Origin: a virus
Reading direction: 5' to 3' (one strand)
IMG/VR virus record: IMGVR_UViG_3300046170_000340
Coordinates: 1-38,244 of that record
Length of the DNA stretch: 38,244 nt
Both the position numbers and the translations under genes were made by a program. A model generated the notes under the pieces. The model was given only the letters and a program-made list of their open reading frames with translations. It searched no databases and had not been told where the DNA came from. Shown piece after piece: positions 343 to 26,158 of this stretch. The first letter of the stretch is position 1. Each line of letters begins with the position of its first letter.

Positions 343-687
343 ATGTTTATTAAATCTATCTCTGCTATCGCTGCTGCTGCCTTGCTCAGTGTTGGCTCAT
401 CCGTCCAAGCAGGAGGCTCAATGCTTTCTTCCTGGTACGGTGGCTATTTCCACGGCAGGACCACAGCCAACGGCGAGACTTACGATATGTACGGACTTAC
501 CGCCGCACATAAGTCGCTACCTTTCGGTACAAAACTACGTGTTTGCTACCAAGGATGCGTGGATGTACGTATCAATGATCGCGGTCCCTATATTGGTGCT
601 CGTGAGCTTGATTTATCGTACGGAGCTGCAAAACAAATCGGATTAACTCATCCCGGTGTAGATTATGTAAGCTTTACTTATCTATAA
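343..687 (+). CDS. RlpA-like double-psi beta-barrel exported protein
   Basis: 114 aa. Residues 1-23 form a signal peptide: positive start, Ala/Leu-rich core, cleavage likely after VQA. The remainder is an RlpA-like double-psi beta-barrel: a WYG...GR.TANGE block, then AAHKSLPFGTKLRV, then the VRINDRGPY signature with the conserved Asp, then an Ala-rich helix. RlpA relatives are periplasmic or outer-membrane peptidoglycan proteins; some cleave denuded glycan. There is no lipobox Cys at the cleavage site, so a soluble periplasmic form is predicted. In a phage it could assist lysis or remodel the wall. An overlapping ORF at 329-646 is a frame shadow. Confidence 0.85.
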   Translation: MFIKSISAIAAAALLSVGSSVQAGGSMLSSWYGGYFHGRTTANGETYDMYGLTAAHKSLPFGTKLRVCYQGCVDVRINDRGPYIGARELDLSYGAAKQIGLTHPGVDYVSFTYL

Positions 688-6219: not shown

Positions 6220-6567
6220 ATGATGAAAACTTACGAACTCTATGTATTTACTCAAGAGTCTTGTGCTCCCTGCACACGCCTCAAGGACCACGTCCAAACT
6301 CTCACGGAAGCTGAGCAAGCTGAACTCCACTTTGTGCCTCTTAAGACGGCCTCAGGCGCTCGTACGGCGCTTGCAGAGGAGTTATCGGTGGACCTTACAC
6401 CAACACTCGTTGTTGTACATGAGGAGGTCGCTTGCCAACTCGATGCCGATGGCGACGAAGACTGCGACTATGTCGAGCAGTCAGTTGAAAGATTCGTTGG
6501 AGCTAACAGCATCATCGAACATCTACAAGCAACGCTAGACGCTTACACTTACGCACATCCTGAATGA
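6220..6567 (+). CDS. Thioredoxin/glutaredoxin-like protein
   Basis: 115 aa. A beta strand (YELYVFTQESC) leads into the redox motif CAPC at residues 16-19. A helix, a second strand (LHFVPLKT) and the cis-proline region (VDLTPTLVVV) follow, giving a thioredoxin-type fold. The C-terminus is acidic and carries extra Cys residues. A phage thioredoxin could reduce the ribonucleotide reductase encoded nearby or act as a polymerase processivity partner, as host thioredoxin does for T7. The start is MM at 6220 or 6223. The end overlaps the next ATG by 4 bases. Confidence 0.8.
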   Translation: MMKTYELYVFTQESCAPCTRLKDHVQTLTEAEQAELHFVPLKTASGARTALAEELSVDLTPTLVVVHEEVACQLDADGDEDCDYVEQSVERFVGANSIIEHLQATLDAYTYAHPE

Positions 6568-7016
6568 TAAAATACGTTTACGGAATTATCCATTCTGATG
6601 ATCCTCATATTGACTGCCTAATACCTGACTGTGCTGAACCAGATGCTGAGTATGCATACGATAGATATCTAGAAGATACTGAAGCTGACTGGTTAGAAGT
6701 CCTCACCTTAAATGAAGACGACTACTGGCGTGGTTGGTTTTACTACAACGATATGAGTGACGGTGAAGATGCTGCTCCTTGTGAAGTTAATACAGAAGAG
6801 CACCTCGATTGGCACTGGGAATCTAATAGCGGAGGTGGTCACTATGACTGCCTTCGTTATGAACACGTAGTTAACAACAGAATTGTCACTACTCGCTACT
6901 TCAAATCTGTAGGTATGCAGATGTGGGACGACCCTGTTGATATTACAACTCACCATCAATTTGAAAATAGACTTACAACTAATGACACAGATCGAACGCG
7001 AAGAGCTTATATTTGA
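6564..7016 (+). CDS. Acidic hypothetical protein (150 aa)
   Basis: ATGATAA junction with the thioredoxin-like gene. Strongly acidic, Trp- and Tyr-rich, with four Cys and several His, and no membrane segment. The family is not recognised. The last 11 codons (TTNDTDRTRRAYI) overlap the next gene. A TAATG junction typical of this genome sits at 6980-6984 in another frame, so the true end may be there if the sequence has a further one-base error. Confidence 0.55.
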   Translation: MIKYVYGIIHSDDPHIDCLIPDCAEPDAEYAYDRYLEDTEADWLEVLTLNEDDYWRGWFYYNDMSDGEDAAPCEVNTEEHLDWHWESNSGGGHYDCLRYEHVVNNRIVTTRYFKSVGMQMWDDPVDITTHHQFENRLTTNDTDRTRRAYI

Positions 7017-7182
7017 TTTAGCCCAACACAGAGTAAGACAGTTATCAGACGCAGGTATATTCGCTATGGCGGTAGACCAAATGTGTGCACTGCTTTCTCG
7101 TGAAACTGATGAGCAATTGCTCAAGGTATCACTGGGATATGAACCAAAAAAAGATAAGAGTAAATCTGGTAAAGGATTTTAA
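6982..7182 (+). CDS. Small hypothetical protein with Lys-rich tail (66 aa)
   Basis: Start taken at ATG 6982 (MTQIEREELIFDLAQHRV) rather than an upstream codon that would overlap the previous gene more. A helical body with a basic, Gly/Ser-containing tail (KKDKSKSGKGF). Its TAA directly precedes the IF-1 ATG. The family is not recognised. Confidence 0.6.
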   Translation: MTQIEREELIFDLAQHRVRQLSDAGIFAMAVDQMCALLSRETDEQLLKVSLGYEPKKDKSKSGKGF

Positions 7183-7407
7183 ATGGCTAAAGCTAATGTA
7201 ATATCAGCGAGAGGTTCAATCCTTCGTGAAGATGGCAATGGATATTTCCGTGTTGAACTTGAAGACCCTGCTGGACATGTATGTCTATGCCGTGCTTCAG
7301 GTAAACTAATTACACGCAAAATTCAACTTCTTGTTGGTGACACTGTCACCGTAGAACTCAGTCCTTATGACCTTGACCGAGGTCGCATTACACTCAGAGA
7401 GAAATAA
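7183..7407 (+). CDS. infA: Translation initiation factor IF-1 homologue
   Basis: 74 aa, close to the 72-aa bacterial length, a single OB fold. Family landmarks in order: MAKAN.I...G.IL, then YFRVELE...GHV, then RASGK, then the signature VGDTVTVELSPYDLDRGRITLREK. Cellular IF-1 binds the 30S A site and works with IF-2 and IF-3 in initiation. A phage copy could bias initiation toward phage mRNA or replace host IF-1 during shutoff; that role is inference. It lies between a small unknown gene and mazG with no intergenic space, so it is co-transcribed with nucleotide-metabolism genes. An RNA-chaperone use of the OB fold is an alternative. Confidence 0.93.
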   Translation: MAKANVISARGSILREDGNGYFRVELEDPAGHVCLCRASGKLITRKIQLLVGDTVTVELSPYDLDRGRITLREK

Positions 7408-7848
7408 ATGTCACTACTAGAACAAGCACGAAAGTTCCGCGAAACCTTTAATCAAGAAGTATTGCCTAATATTTCACGTTATGGTTTCATCAAAAAGAAA
7501 CTATGGGATATGCAGACTCGTCTCGTTAGAGAGGAAGCTGGTGAGTTCTTAGTTGCTGCAGATGAATGCTTTGCTGACCCCGAAGACCCTAGGCGTAGAG
7601 AGGAGTTAGTCAAAGAATTATCAGATCTTGTCTTTGTTTGCTATCAGTTTGCTGCTACTTATAACATTGATTTAGATAAGGCAATGACCCTCGTCTTTGA
7701 ATCTAATCTCAGTAAACTAGATGAACAAGGAAAGCCAATCTATCGCGAAGACGGCAAGGTCTTGAAAGGACCTAACTATCAGCCACCAGACTTAGCTGAT
7801 TGTCTACCTCAACCACAACTTAACTATTACGATACAAATGGAAAATAA
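7408..7848 (+). CDS. mazG: MazG-like nucleotide pyrophosphohydrolase
   Basis: 146 aa, all-alpha NTP-pyrophosphohydrolase fold. The EEAGEF motif (an E-E-x-x-E type metal site) is near residue 46 and a KELSDLVFVCYQF helix carries the second acidic pair. A C-terminal GKPIYREDGKVLKGPNYQPPDL region matches phage MazG-type proteins. The family hydrolyses dNTPs or NTPs to monophosphates. In cyanophages MazG has been linked to nucleotide recycling or ppGpp modulation; the in vivo substrate cannot be read here. The TAA overlaps the ribonucleotide reductase ATG (TAATG). Confidence 0.9.
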   Translation: MSLLEQARKFRETFNQEVLPNISRYGFIKKKLWDMQTRLVREEAGEFLVAADECFADPEDPRRREELVKELSDLVFVCYQFAATYNIDLDKAMTLVFESNLSKLDEQGKPIYREDGKVLKGPNYQPPDLADCLPQPQLNYYDTNGK

Positions 7849-9257
7849 TGTCATTGCCCGGACTGGACGAGTTCAAAACTGGATTGATGACCCGAGTAGC
7901 CGACTTCCTGTCAGTTGCACAGTCTTTGTTGTTGAAGACAGTATGGAGGGACCCAACGGCATTGAAGCCAGCTGGCGATTTGTCAGCCATGCTCTACGAT
8001 TTGGAGCAGGAGTTGCAGTCCATCTCTCTAAGATTAGACCTGCTGGCACAGATAACGGGTCAGGACTCGTTGCGAGTGGCCCGTGCTCATTTGGAAAAAT
8101 CTATAGTTGTCTTAACGAACAACTCCGACGCGGAGGCGTATACAAGAACGGAGCAGTAGTTCTCCATCTTGACCTCAATCATCCAGACATTCTGGACTTT
8201 ATTGATATGCCTAGGAATGAAATCCCTTGGGCTAAACGATGTATTGACTTGTCTCCTGTTATGTGGGACATGGCAAACCCCGTAGTCAAAGAAGCAATCC
8301 TTAAAGGCATTGCACGCGGTGATATCTGGCTCGCCAAAATCAAAAGAGATCAAAAAGGCGAACGGATTTACGCGAACGTGTGCCTCGAAGTCTTCCTTAA
8401 GATCAAGGGGCACTTGTCTTTTAGAGCACATCAACGTTGGTGCTTGTACTCCAGAAGAGCTGCCTGGTGCATTTACTGCAGGCATGGCAGAGCTCTGTGC
8501 ATTACATCCAACTACTGGTGTTGAGAAAACTGGCGAGTATCTTTCTCAAGAAGAAGACCGTCAAGTTGGTCTCGGCATGCTTGGACTAGCTAACTTGCTT
8601 GCGCTGGAAGGAGTTACATACGCTCAGTTTGGTGAAGCATTGACTGCTCATCACTACCCTGAAGGTGATTACATTACGACTCCAGCTGCACGTAAGATAG
8701 TTACACAGCTACAAGCAGGAATTGATGCAGCAGCAGAAGTAGCACGAGCCGCAAACATGGACCGTGCCTTCGCTATTGCTCCCACTGCCTCTTGCAGTTA
8801 CCGTTACACAGACCGAGCTGGCTATACCACAGCCCCCGAACTTGCACCGCCAATCGGGCGCACAGTGGATAGGGACAGCTCTACATTCGGTGTCGAAACT
8901 TTCGACTACGGAGATGTTGAAACAGCTGAATCTGTTGGCTGGGAAGACTATCGCCGTGTAGTTGATGGAATCATGGAAATGATTAATCGCACTGGCTTAG
9001 CGCATGGCTATAGCTTCAACTCATGGAGCGACGTTGTTCAGTACGACGACGACTTTATTGAAGCATGGCTTGATTCTCCACAGACTTCGCTGTACTACAG
9101 CTTGCAAGTCATGCAGAACACGCAGGCAAAAGATGATGCTCTAGCAGCACTTGACGGTAACTTCGGTGAGATGTTCGGCTTTAATGACGACGACGCCGAT
9201 GATGACATCATTAACGTATTTAATGATCCAGCAGCCTGTGTTGGCTGCGCTGAATAA
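7848..9257 (+). CDS. nrdA: Ribonucleotide reductase alpha subunit, compact cyanophage type (frame-broken)
   Basis: Reconstructed at about 469 aa with two one-base corrections: an A lost in the AAAA run at 7875-7878 and an extra base in GGGGC at 8407-8411. Landmarks: SCTVFVVEDSMEG with the first active-site Cys; the active-site loop NVCLE with the thiyl Cys and Glu; PTASCS; a C-terminal CVGC pair for re-reduction by thioredoxin. The enzyme reduces ribonucleoside diphosphates to dNDPs with the beta subunit encoded next. It is much shorter than E. coli NrdA, with no ATP-cone seen. If no base was lost near 7876, the start could instead be the ATG at 7838 in the second frame. Confidence 0.88.
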
Positions 9258-9276: not shown

Positions 9277-10008
9277 ATGAAAGCAGAAACTCCTTACATT
9301 CATCTTCACCAGCGCAAGCGTACCTGGACTCCTGTCCAAGTATCTGCTGGTCAGCTACTTAATGGTGGCGAAGAAGTCATTCAACGAGCACTAGCACTTC
9401 GTTGCCTTGAAATCCCAGTGGGTGACTTCATTAGCGATGCTATGAAAGGCGACCTACCTGATGTGAAAGGTTGCAAGGAGTTGCTTGCTTCTAACGTTGT
9501 TGACGAAGAAAACCATGATATTGCCCTCAATTTCGCTGCTGCAGCGCATGGAGTCTCCCCTCGGTTTGAGAAGGAGGCTGCACACATTTGCAAGACGTGG
9601 CTTGAACTGGATAGACACCCAGTACTCAAGGCTGTTGTCCTCGAACGCTCCGTCTTCTTTGTACTGCTTCCCATCTTCCGCTTCCTGGGAGATACAGGAT
9701 TGCGTACGACAAGTGCGGATATCAGCCGAGACGAACAGACGCATGTTGCCGCCAACACGCTTGTATGTGAAGCGCTCGGTCTTAAATCTGACAAGACCCT
9801 CAACAATCTCCGCCGCGCTACGGTCGCATGGTGCCTTCAGTCCCTCAAGGGGGAAGCTGATCACAAGCATCTGTCCAGTAACTTCTGGCTTGCAAGTTCA
9901 GATTCTCTCTACACAAGAGGGAAAGCAGAAGGTCTAGCCGAGACACGCGCTAGCCGTATGCCTGCATTCTTTGAGACTGCTAATCAAAACCTACCACAAT
10001 ATGCTTAA
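9277..10008 (+). CDS. nrdB: Ribonucleotide reductase beta subunit, divergent
   Basis: 243 aa, shorter than usual NrdB (about 320-375). Ferritin-like di-metal ligands are visible: a first acidic residue near NGGEE, DEENH (E-x-x-H) near residue 77, a Glu in VLERSVFF, and DEQTH (E-x-x-H) near residue 151. At the place of the E. coli radical Tyr122 (four residues after the first ligand His) there is Leu, so no canonical tyrosyl radical is possible. Compact cyanophage beta subunits adjacent to alpha and lacking that Tyr have been described as a distinct class I clade. I choose ATG 9277 because upstream codons overlap the alpha gene. Confidence 0.82.
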   Translation: MKAETPYIHLHQRKRTWTPVQVSAGQLLNGGEEVIQRALALRCLEIPVGDFISDAMKGDLPDVKGCKELLASNVVDEENHDIALNFAAAAHGVSPRFEKEAAHICKTWLELDRHPVLKAVVLERSVFFVLLPIFRFLGDTGLRTTSADISRDEQTHVAANTLVCEALGLKSDKTLNNLRRATVAWCLQSLKGEADHKHLSSNFWLASSDSLYTRGKAEGLAETRASRMPAFFETANQNLPQYA

Positions 10009-10577: not shown

Positions 10578-10674
10578 ACAAGACTACATTGATAAACTCG
10601 TTACTATTGTTAAGCAGAAAGCAGAACACTGTACTGTTAAACAACTACGAGTCTTAATTAACTCCTATAAATAA
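10570..10674 (+). CDS. Small hypothetical protein (34 aa)
   Basis: MTKQDYIDKLV start, Lys-rich and helical. Its TAA overlaps the thyX ATG by one base (TAATG), the standard junction in this genome. No family recognised. Confidence 0.5.
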   Translation: MTKQDYIDKLVTIVKQKAEHCTVKQLRVLINSYK

Positions 10675-11306
10675 TGCACGACGCTAAACTTATCTGGGTT
10701 ACACCAGATGCTGAGGCACTAATCGCAAAGATTGCCCGTGTCTCTAACCCTAAGAATGAAGATAACCCTGACTCAGAACGGTTGTTGCGTTATCTAATCA
10801 AGCACAAGCACTGGTCACCATTTGAAATGGCGTCTATGTGCGTTGAGATTCACACTACACGTGCCATCTCTCCACAAATTCTGCGTCACCGTAGCTTCTC
10901 TTTCCAAGAGTTCTCACAACGGTACGCTATTCCTACTGATACCTTTGCGACTGTGCTGCCAAAGCTCCGTCGTCAAGATGAAGAGAACAGGCAGAACTCT
11001 ATTGATGACCTTGCAAGTGAAACTGCTGAGTACTACGAAGACCGTATTGATGCTCACTTCCGTCAAGGTGTTGAGCTGTATGAATCCTTGCTTCACTCTG
11101 GTGTAGCTAAAGAATGTGCACGTTCTGTCTTGCCTATCAACACTGTGACTCGTCTGTATATGTCAGGCACTATTCGTAGCTGGCTCCATTACATTGACCT
11201 ACGCGGTGACAACGGTACACAGCGAGAGCATATGTCAATTGCTCGTAGTGTTGGTGAAATTCTTGATACTCAACTTCCAAATATTGCTCGCGCAATGTGG
11301 GGTTAA
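10674..11306 (+). CDS. thyX: FAD-dependent thymidylate synthase
   Basis: 210 aa. The ThyX motif is present: RHRSFSFQEFSQRY near residues 63-76 (RHR followed by S at +7). Upstream HKHWSPFEMA and downstream CARSVLPINTVTRLYMSGTIRSWLHYIDLR blocks complete the active site; Ser in VLPIN and Arg in LDLR-type segments are family-typical. It methylates dUMP to dTMP with methylene-THF and reduced FAD. It follows RNR and supplies dTTP for replication. Length and motifs are complete. Confidence 0.96.
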   Translation: MHDAKLIWVTPDAEALIAKIARVSNPKNEDNPDSERLLRYLIKHKHWSPFEMASMCVEIHTTRAISPQILRHRSFSFQEFSQRYAIPTDTFATVLPKLRRQDEENRQNSIDDLASETAEYYEDRIDAHFRQGVELYESLLHSGVAKECARSVLPINTVTRLYMSGTIRSWLHYIDLRGDNGTQREHMSIARSVGEILDTQLPNIARAMWG

Positions 11307-13762: not shown

Positions 13763-14532
13763 TGTCTGATGAGAACCTAGGTCCTAAAGAAAAACCGTAC
13801 AGGATTCAAACTGCACAGGGTTACCGTAAGTATCTCTGTTCTGGTTTGTACATGCCTTCTGTTACTACAGTTCTATCGGCTACCGAAACAGAAAAATCTA
13901 AAGCAGGTCTAAGAACTTGGCAGAAAAATAATCCTGGTGCACTTGAAGCTGCATCTAAACGGGGCTCTGCTATTCACTTAGGTTGTGAAAACTACCTTCG
14001 TGGATTGGACCCAGGTGTACCTGAAGAATATCAAGACTTCTGGTCAGGGTTAACACCATATCTTGATTGGTTTGATACCATACATTGGAGCGAGCGTCCA
14101 CTTCGCCCTGACTGGAATCACTTGCGTAGTGACGACAGAGAAGTTGCATATGTCTGGAGCACTGAGCATTTATATGCTGGTTGTCCTGACTTGATTGGAG
14201 AAATCGGGGGTGTCAAAATCATCGCTGACTTCAAGACAAGCAACGGTCCATACATGAACTGCTTCCCAGAGAAGGGTGACCGTATGGGCTTCGGTGGATT
14301 CAGGAAGTACCAAAAGTGTGCACAACAAATGGCGGCTTACCGCCTTGCATTATTTGAGCGTACTGGTTATAAATGTGATGTTGCTTTGATTATTGTCTCT
14401 ACACCTGAGATATCTCAAGGCATCTTTATTGATAGCGACCAGCTTGATAGATTCGAAGCTAAGTTCCTGACACGATGTAAACAATTTCATAGCATAGGAG
14501 ATGACGAAGAAGATACTAAAGATTGCAGTTAA
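13762..14532 (+). CDS. PD-(D/E)XK exonuclease (Cas4/RecB-like)
   Basis: 256 aa. The PD-(D/E)XK active site is visible: RGSAIHLGCENYL helix near residue 68, then YAGCPDLIGEI near 139 (conserved Asp), then the core IADFKTS (D-x-K) near 155, then QMAAYRLALFE (the Gln-containing motif). This family digests DNA ends for recombination or degrades host DNA. The gene ends inside the start of the primase/helicase (32-base overlap), indicating coupled expression. Confidence 0.88.
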   Translation: MSDENLGPKEKPYRIQTAQGYRKYLCSGLYMPSVTTVLSATETEKSKAGLRTWQKNNPGALEAASKRGSAIHLGCENYLRGLDPGVPEEYQDFWSGLTPYLDWFDTIHWSERPLRPDWNHLRSDDREVAYVWSTEHLYAGCPDLIGEIGGVKIIADFKTSNGPYMNCFPEKGDRMGFGGFRKYQKCAQQMAAYRLALFERTGYKCDVALIIVSTPEISQGIFIDSDQLDRFEAKFLTRCKQFHSIGDDEEDTKDCS

Positions 14533-16732
14533 CAAAAACTGTGTCAACAAAGAGAACCCACAGCTTGTAGCTAGGGGTTGGAAAAATGTACTAGTAGATA
14601 TTGACTATCTACTTGGGTGGGTTGACAAAGGCTACGGCTGGTGTTCAACCCATTTTATTGAACGCTATCGGAATGCAGACAATGCAGCAGGTAGCAACCT
14701 TATCGTTATTGATATTGACGGTGATACAACACTCGATGCTTTCTGGGCTACTCAGACTGCACGTGACTGGTGCTTAGCCACCTATACATCTGCAAGTCAT
14801 AGCGATAAAGAGCACAGGTTCCGTGCTTTGTTTCCACTAGAGACTGATTTGGAATCAGCATCACAACACCGTGGTGCTTACTGGTTGATTGTCAACCGAT
14901 TGCTAGCAGACCTTGGACTTGAATCGCTTAAAGATAACTGTGGTCAAAAGCCTGAGCGCCTTTGGTATGGCAGCTCAAGTACTACTAGCCGTCTTAATGA
15001 TGGCGCGATGGTTCCCGCTTTCTTGCTGGCTGATATTGACTACGAAGAGCCTGCGGATTTCGTACGTACTGATTGTGAAGACATTGATGTACGACGCTGT
15101 CAGTGGCTCCTACGTGAGTTCCTGGAGCCTACTAGCGACGATGAGTACGAGTCTTACTACGTGCCCGTCATGGCTGCCTGCGCTGGTGTAGGTGGCGTCT
15201 TATTTGATGACTGGGTTGACTGGGTTATCCGTGGTCATCATGGTCACAAAGAAGAAAACATTAGACCTTTTAAATGGAAAGGTCTCGGTAAGTATGCAGG
15301 TCATACTAAACTATATTCGCTTGCAAAGAAGCAAGATGCTAACTGGACTAGACACCTACCACCTGAACTTAAGTTTGGTGCTGTAGGTGGCGCTGTTGGT
15401 TATACAGAAACAGATCCACTTGTTAGTTTTGATGATGTCATTTCCCATGCTAAAGGAGAAAACCATATGGAGTTTGAACCAGAACCGTTACCTGACTCGA
15501 AAGAGGTCAAGAAGCGGGGCCGTCCAAAGAAAAGTAGTGAAGATGCTGCTAAGGAGCGTGAAGCTGATGTAGAGAAAGTAAGAACTATTCTCACTGACTT
15601 ACGTAAGAATGAGCTCACTAATGCTATTGAGTACACTGATGCTCAAGGTAAAACGATTGCACTTCAAGGTAATGACCTTGACTTAATGACTACTAAGATG
15701 GCATGCGAGCACGGGATATTTATCCCTGAGCCACGCATTAAATCTGCTATTCAATATGCAGCGCAGAAGAATAGCTACTGTCCCATCCGTCGTTACCTTG
15801 ACCACTGTGCTGCTCATGCAAAGCCTCACAAAGATTGGGACAAGGTTGGTGAAATCTTCCTAGGTAACAAGCACAGCATTGCTACTCTCGCTATGCAACG
15901 CATGATGATTGGTGCAGTTGCTCGTGCTTATAACCCTGGCTGCTCTATGTCATGGCTACCCATCCTCGTGGGTGCTCAAGGTGTAGGTAAGTCTATGTTC
16001 TCTCGCAACCTAGTCCCTGACTTGTTGTTTGCAGAGATTACTACCCCACTAGATACGCTTATCAAAGAGCAGTACAGACTGCACGTTGCTTGGCTGCTAG
16101 AGCTACCTGAGATTGATAACTACTTCAACATCAGGAACATTGAAAACTTCAAGAACCTTGTGACTAGCAGAGTAGATGAAGTGCGTTACCCATACGCATC
16201 ACTGCCATCTAAGTTGCCACGTCGCTTCGTGATGATTGGTACTACTAACCGTAACCAGTTCCTTGTAGATAGCACAGGCAACAGACGTTTCGTACCACTT
16301 GAGATTGGCGGTGGCTTTCAGATTCCCTGGAAGCAACTAGCTGAAGAGCGTGACAGTCTTTGGGCTGCTGCTGTAGCCGCATTCCGTAGTGGAGAAGGCT
16401 ACGAGTTCAACAGTGGTGAGATTGCTGCTATCTCTGAGTACATCCAAGAGTTCGGTGACCCTGACCCCTGGATGGATAAGGTTGCTAGTTACGTAGCAAT
16501 CCGTGAAGAAGTTACAGCTGCTGATGTTCTTACACATGCACTTGAACTTGACCCACGCAACCAAGGTCGTAGGGAAGCAAGACGTATTGCTGATGTACTA
16601 CAGACTATGGGATGGCGACGACTAGTCACCTCCCGTAAAGACCCAGTCACTGGTAAGTCTAAGTCTGTTCGTGTATGGCAACGTCCTAAAGATGACCCTC
16701 TGACTGAAGACCATATCCTTAATGACTTCTAA
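14501..16732 (+). CDS. Primase/helicase: N-terminal PrimPol (AEP) and C-terminal VapE-type ATPase
   Basis: 743 aa, the longest uninterrupted gene of the left half. N-terminal half: archaeo-eukaryotic primase signatures LIVIDIDGDT (D-x-D), SASHS (s-x-H) and RFRALFPLE, then RLWYGSSS. Basic linker near residue 340 (KKRGRPKK). C-terminal half: VirE/VapE superfamily-3-like ATPase with Walker A VGAQGVGKS near residue 490, Walker B WLLELPEID, and sensor/Arg region VMIGTTNRNQFLVDSTGNRRF. It would prime and unwind phage DNA at the fork. The fold differs from the T7 TOPRIM/DnaB primase-helicase although the polymerase is T7-like. Confidence 0.88.
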   Translation: MTKKILKIAVNKNCVNKENPQLVARGWKNVLVDIDYLLGWVDKGYGWCSTHFIERYRNADNAAGSNLIVIDIDGDTTLDAFWATQTARDWCLATYTSASHSDKEHRFRALFPLETDLESASQHRGAYWLIVNRLLADLGLESLKDNCGQKPERLWYGSSSTTSRLNDGAMVPAFLLADIDYEEPADFVRTDCEDIDVRRCQWLLREFLEPTSDDEYESYYVPVMAACAGVGGVLFDDWVDWVIRGHHGHKEENIRPFKWKGLGKYAGHTKLYSLAKKQDANWTRHLPPELKFGAVGGAVGYTETDPLVSFDDVISHAKGENHMEFEPEPLPDSKEVKKRGRPKKSSEDAAKEREADVEKVRTILTDLRKNELTNAIEYTDAQGKTIALQGNDLDLMTTKMACEHGIFIPEPRIKSAIQYAAQKNSYCPIRRYLDHCAAHAKPHKDWDKVGEIFLGNKHSIATLAMQRMMIGAVARAYNPGCSMSWLPILVGAQGVGKSMFSRNLVPDLLFAEITTPLDTLIKEQYRLHVAWLLELPEIDNYFNIRNIENFKNLVTSRVDEVRYPYASLPSKLPRRFVMIGTTNRNQFLVDSTGNRRFVPLEIGGGFQIPWKQLAEERDSLWAAAVAAFRSGEGYEFNSGEIAAISEYIQEFGDPDPWMDKVASYVAIREEVTAADVLTHALELDPRNQGRREARRIADVLQTMGWRRLVTSRKDPVTGKSKSVRVWQRPKDDPLTEDHILNDF

Positions 16733-20441: not shown

Positions 20442-22248
20442 CCTTGAGACCACTGGACTTCTACGTCGTGGCTCCACAATCCATTGCATCGTCATGCGTG
20501 ACATGAACACAGCTGACGAACCTATTGTCTTTGACTACAAGCCTGAGCGTGCTGTCGTTCAAGGCATCAAGCAACTTGAGAATGCTGATGCACTTATTGG
20601 ACACAACATCACTGGCTATGACATCCCTCTTATCAAAGAGCAGTTCCCTGACTTCGACTTCCAAGGTGAAGTGCTTGACACTCTTGTCATGTCTCGCCTT
20701 GTACTATCCAAACATCAGTGACCGCGATTATGAGCGTCGTCCTGATGGGATGCCTCAGCGTTTGTATGGACGTCACTCTCTCGAAGCATGGGGCTATCGC
20801 TTAAAGTGTTTCAAGGGAGACTTTGCAAAGAACGACAGTAACGACTGGAGTACTTATACCCCTGAGATGCTTGATTATTGCATCCAAGATACGCAAGTCA
20901 CACTGCGTTTATACGAATTACTACAACGGAGAATGGAGACTTATGCCTGATTACATCAAACTCGAAATGGATATGGCCATGCTTATGGCTCAGCAAGAAG
21001 CATCAGGGTTTCGCTTTGATATGGATGCTGCCGTGCGTGTACGTGCACAGCTCCAAGATGAGTTTGATTCTATTACTGAAGCTATTGCCAAAATATATCT
21101 GTACTGTACCGGGTAAAGTCTTTACTCCCTAAGCGTGCAGATAAGAAGCGTGGCTATGTAGCAGGTGCTCCTATGACACGCCTGACTGACTTCAATCCGA
21201 CGTCACGTCAGAACATTGCCTGGGCATTGCAGACCTTCCGTGGTGCTCGTTTCACAAGGATTACAGAGACTGGTAAGCCTAAGGTTGATGAAGCAACTCT
21301 CTCTGAGGTGCGGGACATTGCACTGTCTGCTGGTAATCAGCAGCTACATGACGAGTGTGAGATGTTTATCCGTCTGTTGACCTTGCAGAAGTGGCTGGGT
21401 CAGCTGTCCGAGGGAACCAACTCTTGGTTCAACTCTATTGAGGGGGACGGCTGTATCCACCACAGCTGCACACTGTCAACACAGACGGGACGTAATGCTC
21501 ACCGTGGTCCCAACTTGGGCCAGGTCGTCTCTGCACCATGGGCACGTGAACTATTTGTTCCACACCCTGGTCATGTCATGGTGGGTGCTGACTTAGAAGG
21601 TCTGGAATTAAGACTGCTTGGGCACTACCTAGCAGCCTTTGATGAAGGCTCCTTCGCTGAGGTTGTTGTCAACGGCGACATCCATCAGCAGAACGCTGAC
21701 CGTGTGGGGTGTACACGTACACAAGTCAAGACCCTCACGTATGCGTTCATATATGGTGCCGGTGACGTGAAGCTTGGCCATAGTCTTCAGCCTGAGCTGT
21801 CAGATGCACAGAAGAAAACACTTGGCGGTGAGTTACGCCGCAAATTCCTTGACGCTATCCCTGGATTGGAGCCATTAGTAGATGCAGTTAAACTTAAAGT
21901 TCGGTCAACTGGTCGCCTTAGGGGCCTTGATGGGCGTCCTATATTCTGTCGTGCTGAGCACAGTAGTCCCAACTTCTTACTTCAGTCTGCCGGAGCAATC
22001 ATCTCCAAGCGATGGGTGGTGATTGGACAGCAACTGTTAACGATGCAGGGACTTACATATGACGTTGACTACACCCGTTGTGCCTACGTGCACGATGAAG
22101 TGCAGATGTCTGTCGTACCTGCTGAAGTTGATCGCATGAAGATGCTGTTAGAAGCAGCAGCACCTGAAGCTGGTAAGTATTACAACCTGCGTGTACCTAT
22201 TGGCTGCATGCTGCTGACCATGGAGATAACTGGGCAGCTACCCACTAA
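20419..22248 (+). CDS. Family A DNA polymerase (T7-like), several frame breaks
   Basis: Reconstructed at about 608 aa. The 3'-5' exonuclease begins LLFDLETTGLL (D-x-E) with HNITGYDIPLI and DTLVMSRL; then YERRPDGMPQRLYGRHSLEAWGYRLK and LDYCIQDTQVT. The polymerase domain has TGRNAHRGPNLGQV, motif A GADLEGLELRLLGHY, motif B RTQVKTLTYAFIYGAGD and motif C YVHDEVQMS. Breaks (one extra base each) lie near 20701, 20945, 21099-21111 and 21130, and a lost base near 22208 gives a family-typical GDNWAATH end at TAA 22246-22248. In the raw frame the C-terminus runs to 22489 into the next gene. It replicates the phage genome with the PrimPol protein. Confidence 0.92.
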
Positions 22249-22652: not shown

Positions 22653-23024
22653 ATGAAATCTATTATTGCCGTTGCAGCTCTGTCTGCTTTGTCTGCTCCT
22701 GCTTTCGCTGGTCCTTATGCCAACGTTGAGAACAATGCAGGCTGGGTTGGTGACGACTTCACCGCCGCTGTGACTGAAGTGCACGCTGGCTATGAGTTTG
22801 AAGCTAGCGATTCTGTTACCCTATATGTACAGGCAGGTCCTGCTTTCATCTCTATTGAAGATGAAGACTTGGAGACCGAAGTGTCTGGTAAATTTGGTGT
22901 TACTGCCGATGTCTCAGAATCATTCGAACTCTACGGAGAAGTCGCATTCCTCACGGAAGACCAAGAATTTGACGTGGATACCCTTACATTGGGTACCAAG
23001 GTTGGTGCAACCTACCGCTTCTGA
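22653..23024 (+). CDS. Exported outer-membrane beta-barrel-like protein
   Basis: 123 aa. Residues 1-19 form a classic signal peptide (MKSIIAVAALSALSAPAFA, cleavage after AFA). The mature chain alternates hydrophobic and polar residues in about eight short strands (TAAVTEVHAGYEFEAS, VTLYVQAGPAFISI, GKFGVTADVS, FELYGEVAFLT) and ends in TYRF, the terminal aromatic typical of barrels inserted by BamA. It is acidic overall. It resembles small cyanobacterial/OmpA-like barrels. As a phage gene it may alter the host outer membrane (superinfection exclusion or permeability); that is inference. It has its own promoter candidate and terminator. Confidence 0.75.
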   Translation: MKSIIAVAALSALSAPAFAGPYANVENNAGWVGDDFTAAVTEVHAGYEFEASDSVTLYVQAGPAFISIEDEDLETEVSGKFGVTADVSESFELYGEVAFLTEDQEFDVDTLTLGTKVGATYRF

Positions 23025-25259: not shown

Positions 25260-25366
25260 CTACGCTAACTACAGTAGTTTTCTATATATCTATTATTTAA
25301 TCCTACGTAGCTCCTATATATCTATTATTTAAAAACAGTATATAGGGATTAGCGTAGTTAGCGTAG
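25260..25366. repeat. Direct and inverted repeats flanking the integrase 3' end (attP-like)
   Basis: A 19-bp direct repeat CTATATATCTATTATTTAA occurs at 25282-25300 and 25314-25332. A 13-bp inverted pair, CTACGCTAACTAC at 25260-25272 and its complement at 25354-25366, encloses them; the right copy overlaps the last codons of the integrase. The TACGTAG at about 25303-25309 is a further palindrome. Such clustered repeats beside a tyrosine integrase resemble arm-type sites of a phage attachment region; a core identical to a host tRNA was not recognised. Confidence 0.55.
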
Positions 25367-26158
25367 CTTTTGTAGCTCGCCTACCTTTAGTACTGCCTGT
25401 TCTAGGTCCTCTAGGAATACATCACCATAGTCAGCCGTAGTTCCCTGAGGAGTATGTCCTACGAGACGCATGGCAATACTGTATTCAACGCCTGCTTTCC
25501 GCATTCGGTTGATGAAGTTATGACGAAGAGAATGTGCTGGATAACCAGTGCGGCGCTTCAGCTTTCTGCTCCACATATCTCCTGGTGAGTATGAGCTAGA
25601 GCTGCTATGTACTTTGAGTGCGTTCACAAACGGGATACAAGCAGGGTGAATAGGAACCTGCCTTACTGACTCCTCATTTTTTAATTTACGGATTTTGTTG
25701 TGCTTTAAATCAAAGTACGGAATCTCTTCATTAAGAACTATTTCTTCAGGCAAGATGCCTCCAATTTCACCTAAACGCATGCCGTGATGCCAGATACACA
25801 GGAACATAGGGTCTTTGTGAAACTCATGGAAGTAATTCCACGACTGTTGTGTGTACTTACGCTTTGACTTTGTGTAGTCTGCTCCTTGACCAAGCCAAGG
25901 GTTTGTGTCTACTAGCTTTGCTTTGATACCTACATTCCAAATTGATTGTAGAGAGGCAAGACGCATCTTCAAAGTGCCTCCACACCAGCTACCCCAAGGC
26001 TTTAGACGTTCCATCCTGTACCTTGTGACTTGAGCCTCGTCTATGTCTGACACCGCTAGTTCACCAATAGGGTCAACTGCATTTAGCCAGAGTTTGTATG
26101 TGCCCGGCTCAATAGGCTTGAGACGGTGTGCGAAATCCGCAAGTTCGTAGACGTTCAT
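25358..26158 (-). CDS. int: Tyrosine recombinase/integrase
   Basis: 266 aa. The N-terminal core-binding helical domain (residues 1-105) precedes the catalytic domain. Catalytic residues: Arg in HGMRLGE, Lys in the beta-hairpin region near NKIRKLKN, HSLRH (H-x-x-R), the His of VGHTPQGTT, and Tyr in ADYGDV. It performs site-specific integration and excision. An upstream in-frame TAA fixes the start at 26158. It has no long N-terminal arm-binding domain, so arm binding by the adjacent repeats may need another protein. Transcribed leftward, away from the barrel cassette. Confidence 0.92.
   Translation of the reverse strand: MNVYELADFAHRLKPIEPGTYKLWLNAVDPIGELAVSDIDEAQVTRYRMERLKPWGSWCGGTLKMRLASLQSIWNVGIKAKLVDTNPWLGQGADYTKSKRKYTQQSWNYFHEFHKDPMFLCIWHHGMRLGEIGGILPEEIVLNEEIPYFDLKHNKIRKLKNEESVRQVPIHPACIPFVNALKVHSSSSSYSPGDMWSRKLKRRTGYPAHSLRHNFINRMRKAGVEYSIAMRLVGHTPQGTTADYGDVFLEDLEQAVLKVGELQKLR

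Follow-up and report, generated by a model that had tools for sequence, protein, structure and literature searches.

A translation initiation factor IF-1 homologue with a remodelled decoding-site loop in an uncultured cyanophage lineage

Phage-encoded IF-1 proteins and the locus analysed

The known routes by which phages act on host translation are tRNAs and kinases and, in huge phages, ribosomal proteins and initiation factors. Viral ribosomal proteins have been described (PMC6375957), and Al-Shayeb et al. reported IF1 and IF3 in huge phages, where they are proposed to redirect host translation (PMC7162821). Among annotated phage records, convincing IF-1 matches were found in huge phages (469-595 kb) and in Bacteroides phages of 167-179 kb, in agreement with an initial annotation of the DNA studied here, which had considered such a gene unusual at this genome size. 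IF-1-like genes occur in Lak phages, in the uncultured phages LR756511 and LR756508 and in Sinorhizobium phage Phosso, in which the gene is annotated as IF-1. Several other matches in the phage collection appear to be bacterial DNA entered under phage names; CAKLQH020000005.1, filed as Acinetobacter phage, holds infA among truA, leuB, leuC and leuD and looks like mislabelled host DNA. A second, separate set of viral IF-1 sequences (L047, L050, L051 and L055), characterized by EERG(S/N)GFF...GKMEKRN, also has a changed decoding-site loop, and two of its members lie in contigs of about 350 kb. The cyanophage isolates in the annotated phage collection gave no IF-1 match at E values up to 10, in a search from which near copies of the record analysed here were possibly left out, and no report of IF-1 in cyanophages was found in our literature search.

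The locus described here comes from IMG/VR virus record IMGVR_UViG_3300046170_000340, which is classed as linear; the whole stretch of 38,244 bases (positions 1 to 38,244) is referred to as the window. It carries an intact IF-1 homologue (infA) at 7183..7407 on the plus strand, which was identified by reading of the ORF, by family models, by sequence search of the PDB and by AlphaFold2 modelling with Foldseek comparison.

Family membership and predicted fold

The infA ORF consists of 74 codons and a stop, running from ATG to TAA with no internal stop; the opposite strand in the same register contains several stops. Direct reading of the sequence reveals a Shine-Dalgarno-like site, AAGGA, at 7172..7176 (plus strand), six bases 5' of the ATG. 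The initial annotation of the product as a 74-residue IF-1 is borne out: the ORF is exact, the stretch it quoted, VGDTVTVELSPYDLDRGRI, reads as given and corresponds to residues 51-69, and the cut-offs of both the infA and the eIF-1a models are passed. The NCBIfam equivalog model TIGR00008 (infA) gave 64.3 bits against a cut-off of 61.15 (E 7e-18), and this position just above the cut-off is counted against our best explanation; Pfam eIF-1a (PF01176) gave 57.4 bits against a cut-off of 30.2. Eleven records from relatives or other viruses were checked as well, and ten of them pass TIGR00008, the remaining one having a frame-shifted N-terminus, and eIF-1a matches all 28 members of the phage clade that were tested. 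A chance ORF was rejected on the family scores and on conservation.

Structural comparison points the same way. The top 12 matches in the PDB sequence search are all bacterial IF-1 chains (best E 1e-15). An AlphaFold2 model built from 28 relatives reached a pLDDT of 83, and its first 11 PDB matches in Foldseek are bacterial IF-1s (TM 0.72-0.93), including E. coli IF1 from 30S complexes. The predicted structure is a single five-strand OB fold, with TM values of 0.83-0.93 against the best-matching IF-1 structures from crystallography and cryo-EM.

The family that comes nearest to competing is the N-terminal OB domain of RsgA (YjeQ/YloQ), which shares with IF-1 the OB fold and 30S binding near the decoding site; RsgA binds the 30S subunit in the same region as IF-1. 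The phage protein is a weak match to this profile, passing the RsgA_N cut-off at 29 against 27 bits, whereas the cellular and huge-phage IF-1s tested score at most 23 bits, below the cut-off. An assignment to the RsgA OB family was nevertheless rejected: the score is about half of that obtained with the IF-1 model, ordinary IF-1s also cross-match weakly, and the 74-residue ORF ends after the OB fold, so that the circularly permuted GTPase domain that follows the OB domain in RsgA is lacking. Solved RsgA folds also rank well below IF-1s among the Foldseek matches of the model. We take the RsgA_N match as a hint about the surface of the phage protein, and as no ground for leaving the IF-1 family.

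Phylogenetic trees were built from 72 usable columns, with non-cyanobacterial IF-1s for comparison. In the unrooted tree made without an outgroup, the phage copies form one tight set (support 99) on a long stem, nested among IF-1s. When RsgA OB domains were added (again 72 columns), the phage set was placed beside the RsgA domains, on their side of a long branch. Of the three RsgA rows used at first, one proved to be in the wrong reading frame, and the picture was unchanged in a rerun after it was dropped. This placement is probably long-branch attraction. Membership is therefore based on the family models, the signature residues and the fold, and not on the tree; at the level of sequence and model, these confirm the gene as a genuine member of the IF-1 (infA) family.

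As for cellular sources, no cyanobacterial IF-1 was present among the best 80 loci listed in a genome scan for IF-1. Two sequences of unverified source, regarded as possible cyanobacterial IF-1s, were used only as search queries; one of them matches the phage clade at 62-67% over the full length, better than most other sequences at about 52%, and is treated as a lead and not as evidence. A plasmid search with an IF-1 query had no cyanobacterium among the best 30 of 119 records.

Gene neighbourhood and conservation in the lineage

The genes around infA all lie on the plus strand. Upstream are a thioredoxin-like gene (6220..6567; Pfam E 2.5e-5, below the cut-off), relatives of which precede IF-1 in most relatives that reach far enough, and a small ORF of unassigned function (6937..7182), present in some relatives only, whose stop abuts the IF-1 ATG. 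Downstream, the start of mazG (7408..7848), which encodes a MazG/PRA-PH-like nucleotide pyrophosphohydrolase, abuts the IF-1 stop. It is followed by nrdA for the ribonucleotide reductase large subunit (7838..9257), assigned by sequence and by its position beside nrdB and interrupted near 8400, where the frame breaks by one base, by nrdB for the small subunit (9277..10008), and by a gene for a ThyX-like, FAD-dependent thymidylate synthase (10674..11306) with 50% identity to the gene so annotated in Synechococcus phage S-EIV1. In relative L194, nrdA is intact as an ORF of 483 aa. The order thioredoxin-like gene, IF-1, mazG, nrdA, nrdB and thyX recurs with small changes among the relatives, and this conserved phage gene order across tens of contigs supports the view that the IF-1 is phage-encoded. 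Since the IF-1 ATG directly follows the upstream stop and the mazG ATG (7408) directly follows the IF-1 stop, a single operon is plausible. IF-1 had been described at the outset as transcribed with RNR, MazG and ThyX; genes of these kinds are indeed present further downstream in the same orientation, whereas their co-transcription is deduced from the layout. No tRNA genes were found in the 38,244-base window or in an 87-kb relative, and there is thus no sign of a general load of translation genes.

The window psbA is 81% identical to cyanophage psbA, with psbD- and hli-like genes beside it, and the closest matches to NrdB and to the DNA polymerase come from T7-like cyanopodoviruses (at most about 58% and 48%, respectively). 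The closest contig is the 87-kb record (L203), which has an IF-1 of 97% identity and carries terminase and head genes; the best match of its terminase (55%) and major head protein (64.5%) is S-EIV1 (KJ410740, 79,178 bp). As the closest isolate by these two proteins, S-EIV1 is of similar size and shares thyX and a family-A polymerase, but it contains no match to the window psbA or RNR proteins, and a profile search with filters off found IF-1 absent from it (best E 0.27). Contig G002, with 80,569 bp and a 141-bp exact repeat at its ends, suggests that complete genomes of the lineage measure about 80 kb. From psbA and psbD and from the host of S-EIV1, we infer that the host is a picocyanobacterium.

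Three genes of the window, psbD, nrdA and the DNA polymerase gene, are split into overlapping frames (at 2400-2550, 8390-8410 and 20700-21180, respectively). An intact psbD exists in relative G001, the window frame near 8400 is one base off with respect to the nearest relatives, and the 87-kb relative has frame breaks of its own in virE and nrdA; assembly indel errors are a likelier cause of these breaks than biology. The 87-kb relative encodes a sigma-70 factor (L203:8280-9215, minus strand) whose regions 1.2, 2, 3 and 4 all score above the Pfam cut-offs, from which the lineage may redirect host transcription besides translation. Elsewhere in the window are a double-psi beta-barrel protein of the lytic transglycosylase/RlpA-like type upstream of psbA (343-687, plus strand; Pfam DPBB_1, E 6.5e-21) and a porin-like cyanophage outer-membrane-like beta barrel (22653-23024, plus strand; Pfam Phage_OMP, E 8e-37). 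A VapE-like primase/helicase-type protein (14501-16732, plus strand) is encoded near the T7-like polymerase, making the replication module mosaic relative to T7-like cyanophages. A tyrosine recombinase-like integrase (25358-26158, minus strand; Pfam Phage_integrase, 29 against 27.1 bits) hints at integration or relics of it, and the 87-kb relative has an integrase-like gene with just 37% identity to it.

Two IMG/VR searches with IF-1 returned 56 and 61 loci with about 50 distinct clade proteins, and the phage IF-1 clade is represented in at least 60 IMG/VR contigs. Because these searches themselves ask for IF-1, its constancy was retested with nrdB as an independent anchor, which yielded 66 loci. 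In 50 of them IF-1 precedes mazG-nrdA, at a distance of about 2 kb on the upstream side of nrdB, and 15 start too near nrdB to tell; the only locus without it (L265) belongs to a far more distant phage whose nrdB is 56% identical. Every clade contig with enough sequence upstream of nrdB (50/50) thus carries IF-1. Between clade pairs the median synonymous difference is 0.80 per site, which is nearly saturated, and dN/dS has a median of 0.10 and a maximum of 0.24 (187 pairs with usable dS), from which we conclude that the protein is functional and has been retained for a long time. A stray capture was rejected on this constancy and on the low dN/dS. Judged from these sequences, IF-1 belongs to the core genes of an uncultured marine cyanophage lineage with genomes of about 80 kb, which is distantly related to S-EIV1.

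The remodelled loop and its possible role

The approximately 50 phage-clade proteins were aligned with 49 cellular IF-1s, among which cyanobacterial IF-1s are not represented (E. coli numbering without Met). In canonical IF-1, the loop 40-45 presumably inserts into the h44 minor groove next to A1492 and A1493, and Arg40, Tyr43 and Arg45 are taken here as its h44 contacts, both after the 30S-IF1 structure. At this loop the phage proteins depart from the cellular pattern. Codons 7303..7326 of the window encode KLITRKIQ in place of the canonical KMR(K/M)(N/H)YIR, and the stretch is nearly invariant in the clade, reading LITRKIQLLVGD almost without exception. Positions 40-45 are ITRKIQ in nearly every phage copy against R(K/M)(N/H)Y-I-(R/K) in cellular IF-1s: in the clade, Arg40 is replaced by Ile or Val, Tyr43 by Lys and Arg45 by Gln or, in a few members, His, with Thr and Arg at positions 41 and 42, whereas the cellular set has R at position 40 in 97%, Y/F at position 43 in 95% and R/K at position 45 in 99%. 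The h44 loop R40-x-x-Y43-I-R/K45, a motif typical of the family but outside its curated definition, is accordingly absent from the phage clade (I40 T41 R42 K43 I44 Q45). His34 is replaced by Arg, and CLCRA precedes the loop in place of the cellular (L/T)A(H/Y)I. Between strands 2 and 3 a two-residue insertion, Asp28-Pro29 (codons 7264..7269), occurs in none of the 49 cellular IF-1s, and its Pro is found in all phage-clade members. The clade is also slightly more basic, with a median net charge of +3 against +1.

Other parts are kept. The near-universal residues Gly37, Asp50, Asp60, Gly64-Arg65 and Arg69 are retained, and the C-terminal signature SPYDLxRGRI (SPYDLDRGRI in the window, codons 7360..7389), together with Arg69, is fixed or nearly so in 50 clade proteins. 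The earlier statement that the whole IF-1 OB fold is kept thus holds for the fold, but it understated the change revealed by the alignment in the loop expected at the ribosome. Given the location of this loop and its difference, the part of the protein likeliest to set its decoding-site effect is unlike that of cellular IF-1 and fixed in the clade, and with the h44-contact residues replaced by Ile, Lys and Gln, 30S binding could be weaker or different. The changed loop, also seen in IF-1s from other viral contigs, lowers certainty about function but not about membership. A nearly invariant natural swap of this kind provides ready-made IF-1 variants for testing the decoding-site residues that control initiation; a literature search for the IF1 point mutants R40D and R69L found no report.

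We propose that the phage IF-1 is expressed with the nucleotide-metabolism block (mazG, nrdA, nrdB and thyX), probably in early or mid infection. By analogy with IF-1 in general, its OB barrel would most likely bind the host 30S subunit at the A site (h44, 530 loop and uS12), where it would supplement or displace host IF-1 at initiation, and the likeliest consequence of the nearly fixed, non-canonical h44-facing loop would be a change in the occupancy of the decoding site, or in the kinetics there, to the benefit of initiation during infection. Taken as a whole, a genuine, specialised core-gene IF-1 that acts at the host 30S A site during infection is the best explanation and, in our estimate, probably the right one. 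It is a more doubtful proposition that the rewritten loop shifts 30S initiation to phage messages, be it through the choice of start sites, through leaderless or weak-SD mRNAs or by excluding host IF-1, and a preference for phage mRNAs is speculative; if true, IF-1 would be a phage lever for translational takeover.

The replacement of residues 40, 43 and 45 by fixed non-canonical ones, the purifying selection and the slightly greater RsgA_N likeness of the clade compared with other IF-1s tested would also fit an IF-1-derived antagonist, which would sit in the 30S A site without supporting normal initiation, thereby throttling host translation or blocking maturation factors like RsgA. We consider this unlikely, as a general block would gain little for a phage needing host translation until lysis, the C-terminal signature and Arg69 are kept, and the loop varies in other phage IF-1s as well (L047 type, GKMEKRNKIRV). 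Cyanophages often carry host genes, and the window has psbA, psbD and an hli-like gene; IF-1 might then be a plain host capture that keeps up supply in a dying cell, its altered loop inherited from a picocyanobacterial IF-1. The apparent presence of one infA in the host (PMC6337551, table) is counted in favour of this reading, but no cellular IF-1 retrieved, in a set without cyanobacterial IF-1s, exceeds about 57% identity to the phage protein, and we give the capture little credence.

A role mainly as a cold-shock-like RNA chaperone or transcription antiterminator, helping phage transcripts to fold or to pass terminators, draws on the RNA chaperone and antitermination activity of E. coli IF1, which can replace cold-shock proteins in B. 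subtilis (both reviewed in PMC3017892), and on the more basic character of the clade. The most constrained features are, however, IF-1-specific (SPYDLxRGRI and Arg69), and the best fold matches are IF-1s and not cold-shock proteins, making such a role quite improbable. Returning to the specialised IF-1, a lineage with its own rewritten copy may, as far as the sequences indicate, directly adjust the start of translation in the infected cell. This lineage of marine cyanophages, which is common and has genomes of about 80 kb, keeps the gene in all members that could be tested, which would mean that adjusting initiation pays even where tRNAs are not detected.

In comparison with bacterial IF-1 (E. 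coli IF1; solved structures 2n8n and 4ql5), the cyanophage protein shares the OB fold, the length, SPYDLxRGRI, Arg69, Gly37-Lys38 and Asp50 at about 50% identity, but it differs in ITRKIQ, Arg34, CLCRA and the insertion after strand 2, and in being phage-borne beside mazG-nrdA. With the IF1 of huge phages it has in common that it is encoded in a bona fide phage genome. Phage IF-1 is already known from huge phages, and the cyanophage copy is a remodelled variant: in contrast to the genomes of 469-595 kb, it belongs to a lineage of about 80 kb in which the gene is constant, has a fixed operon position and forms its own long-stemmed set.
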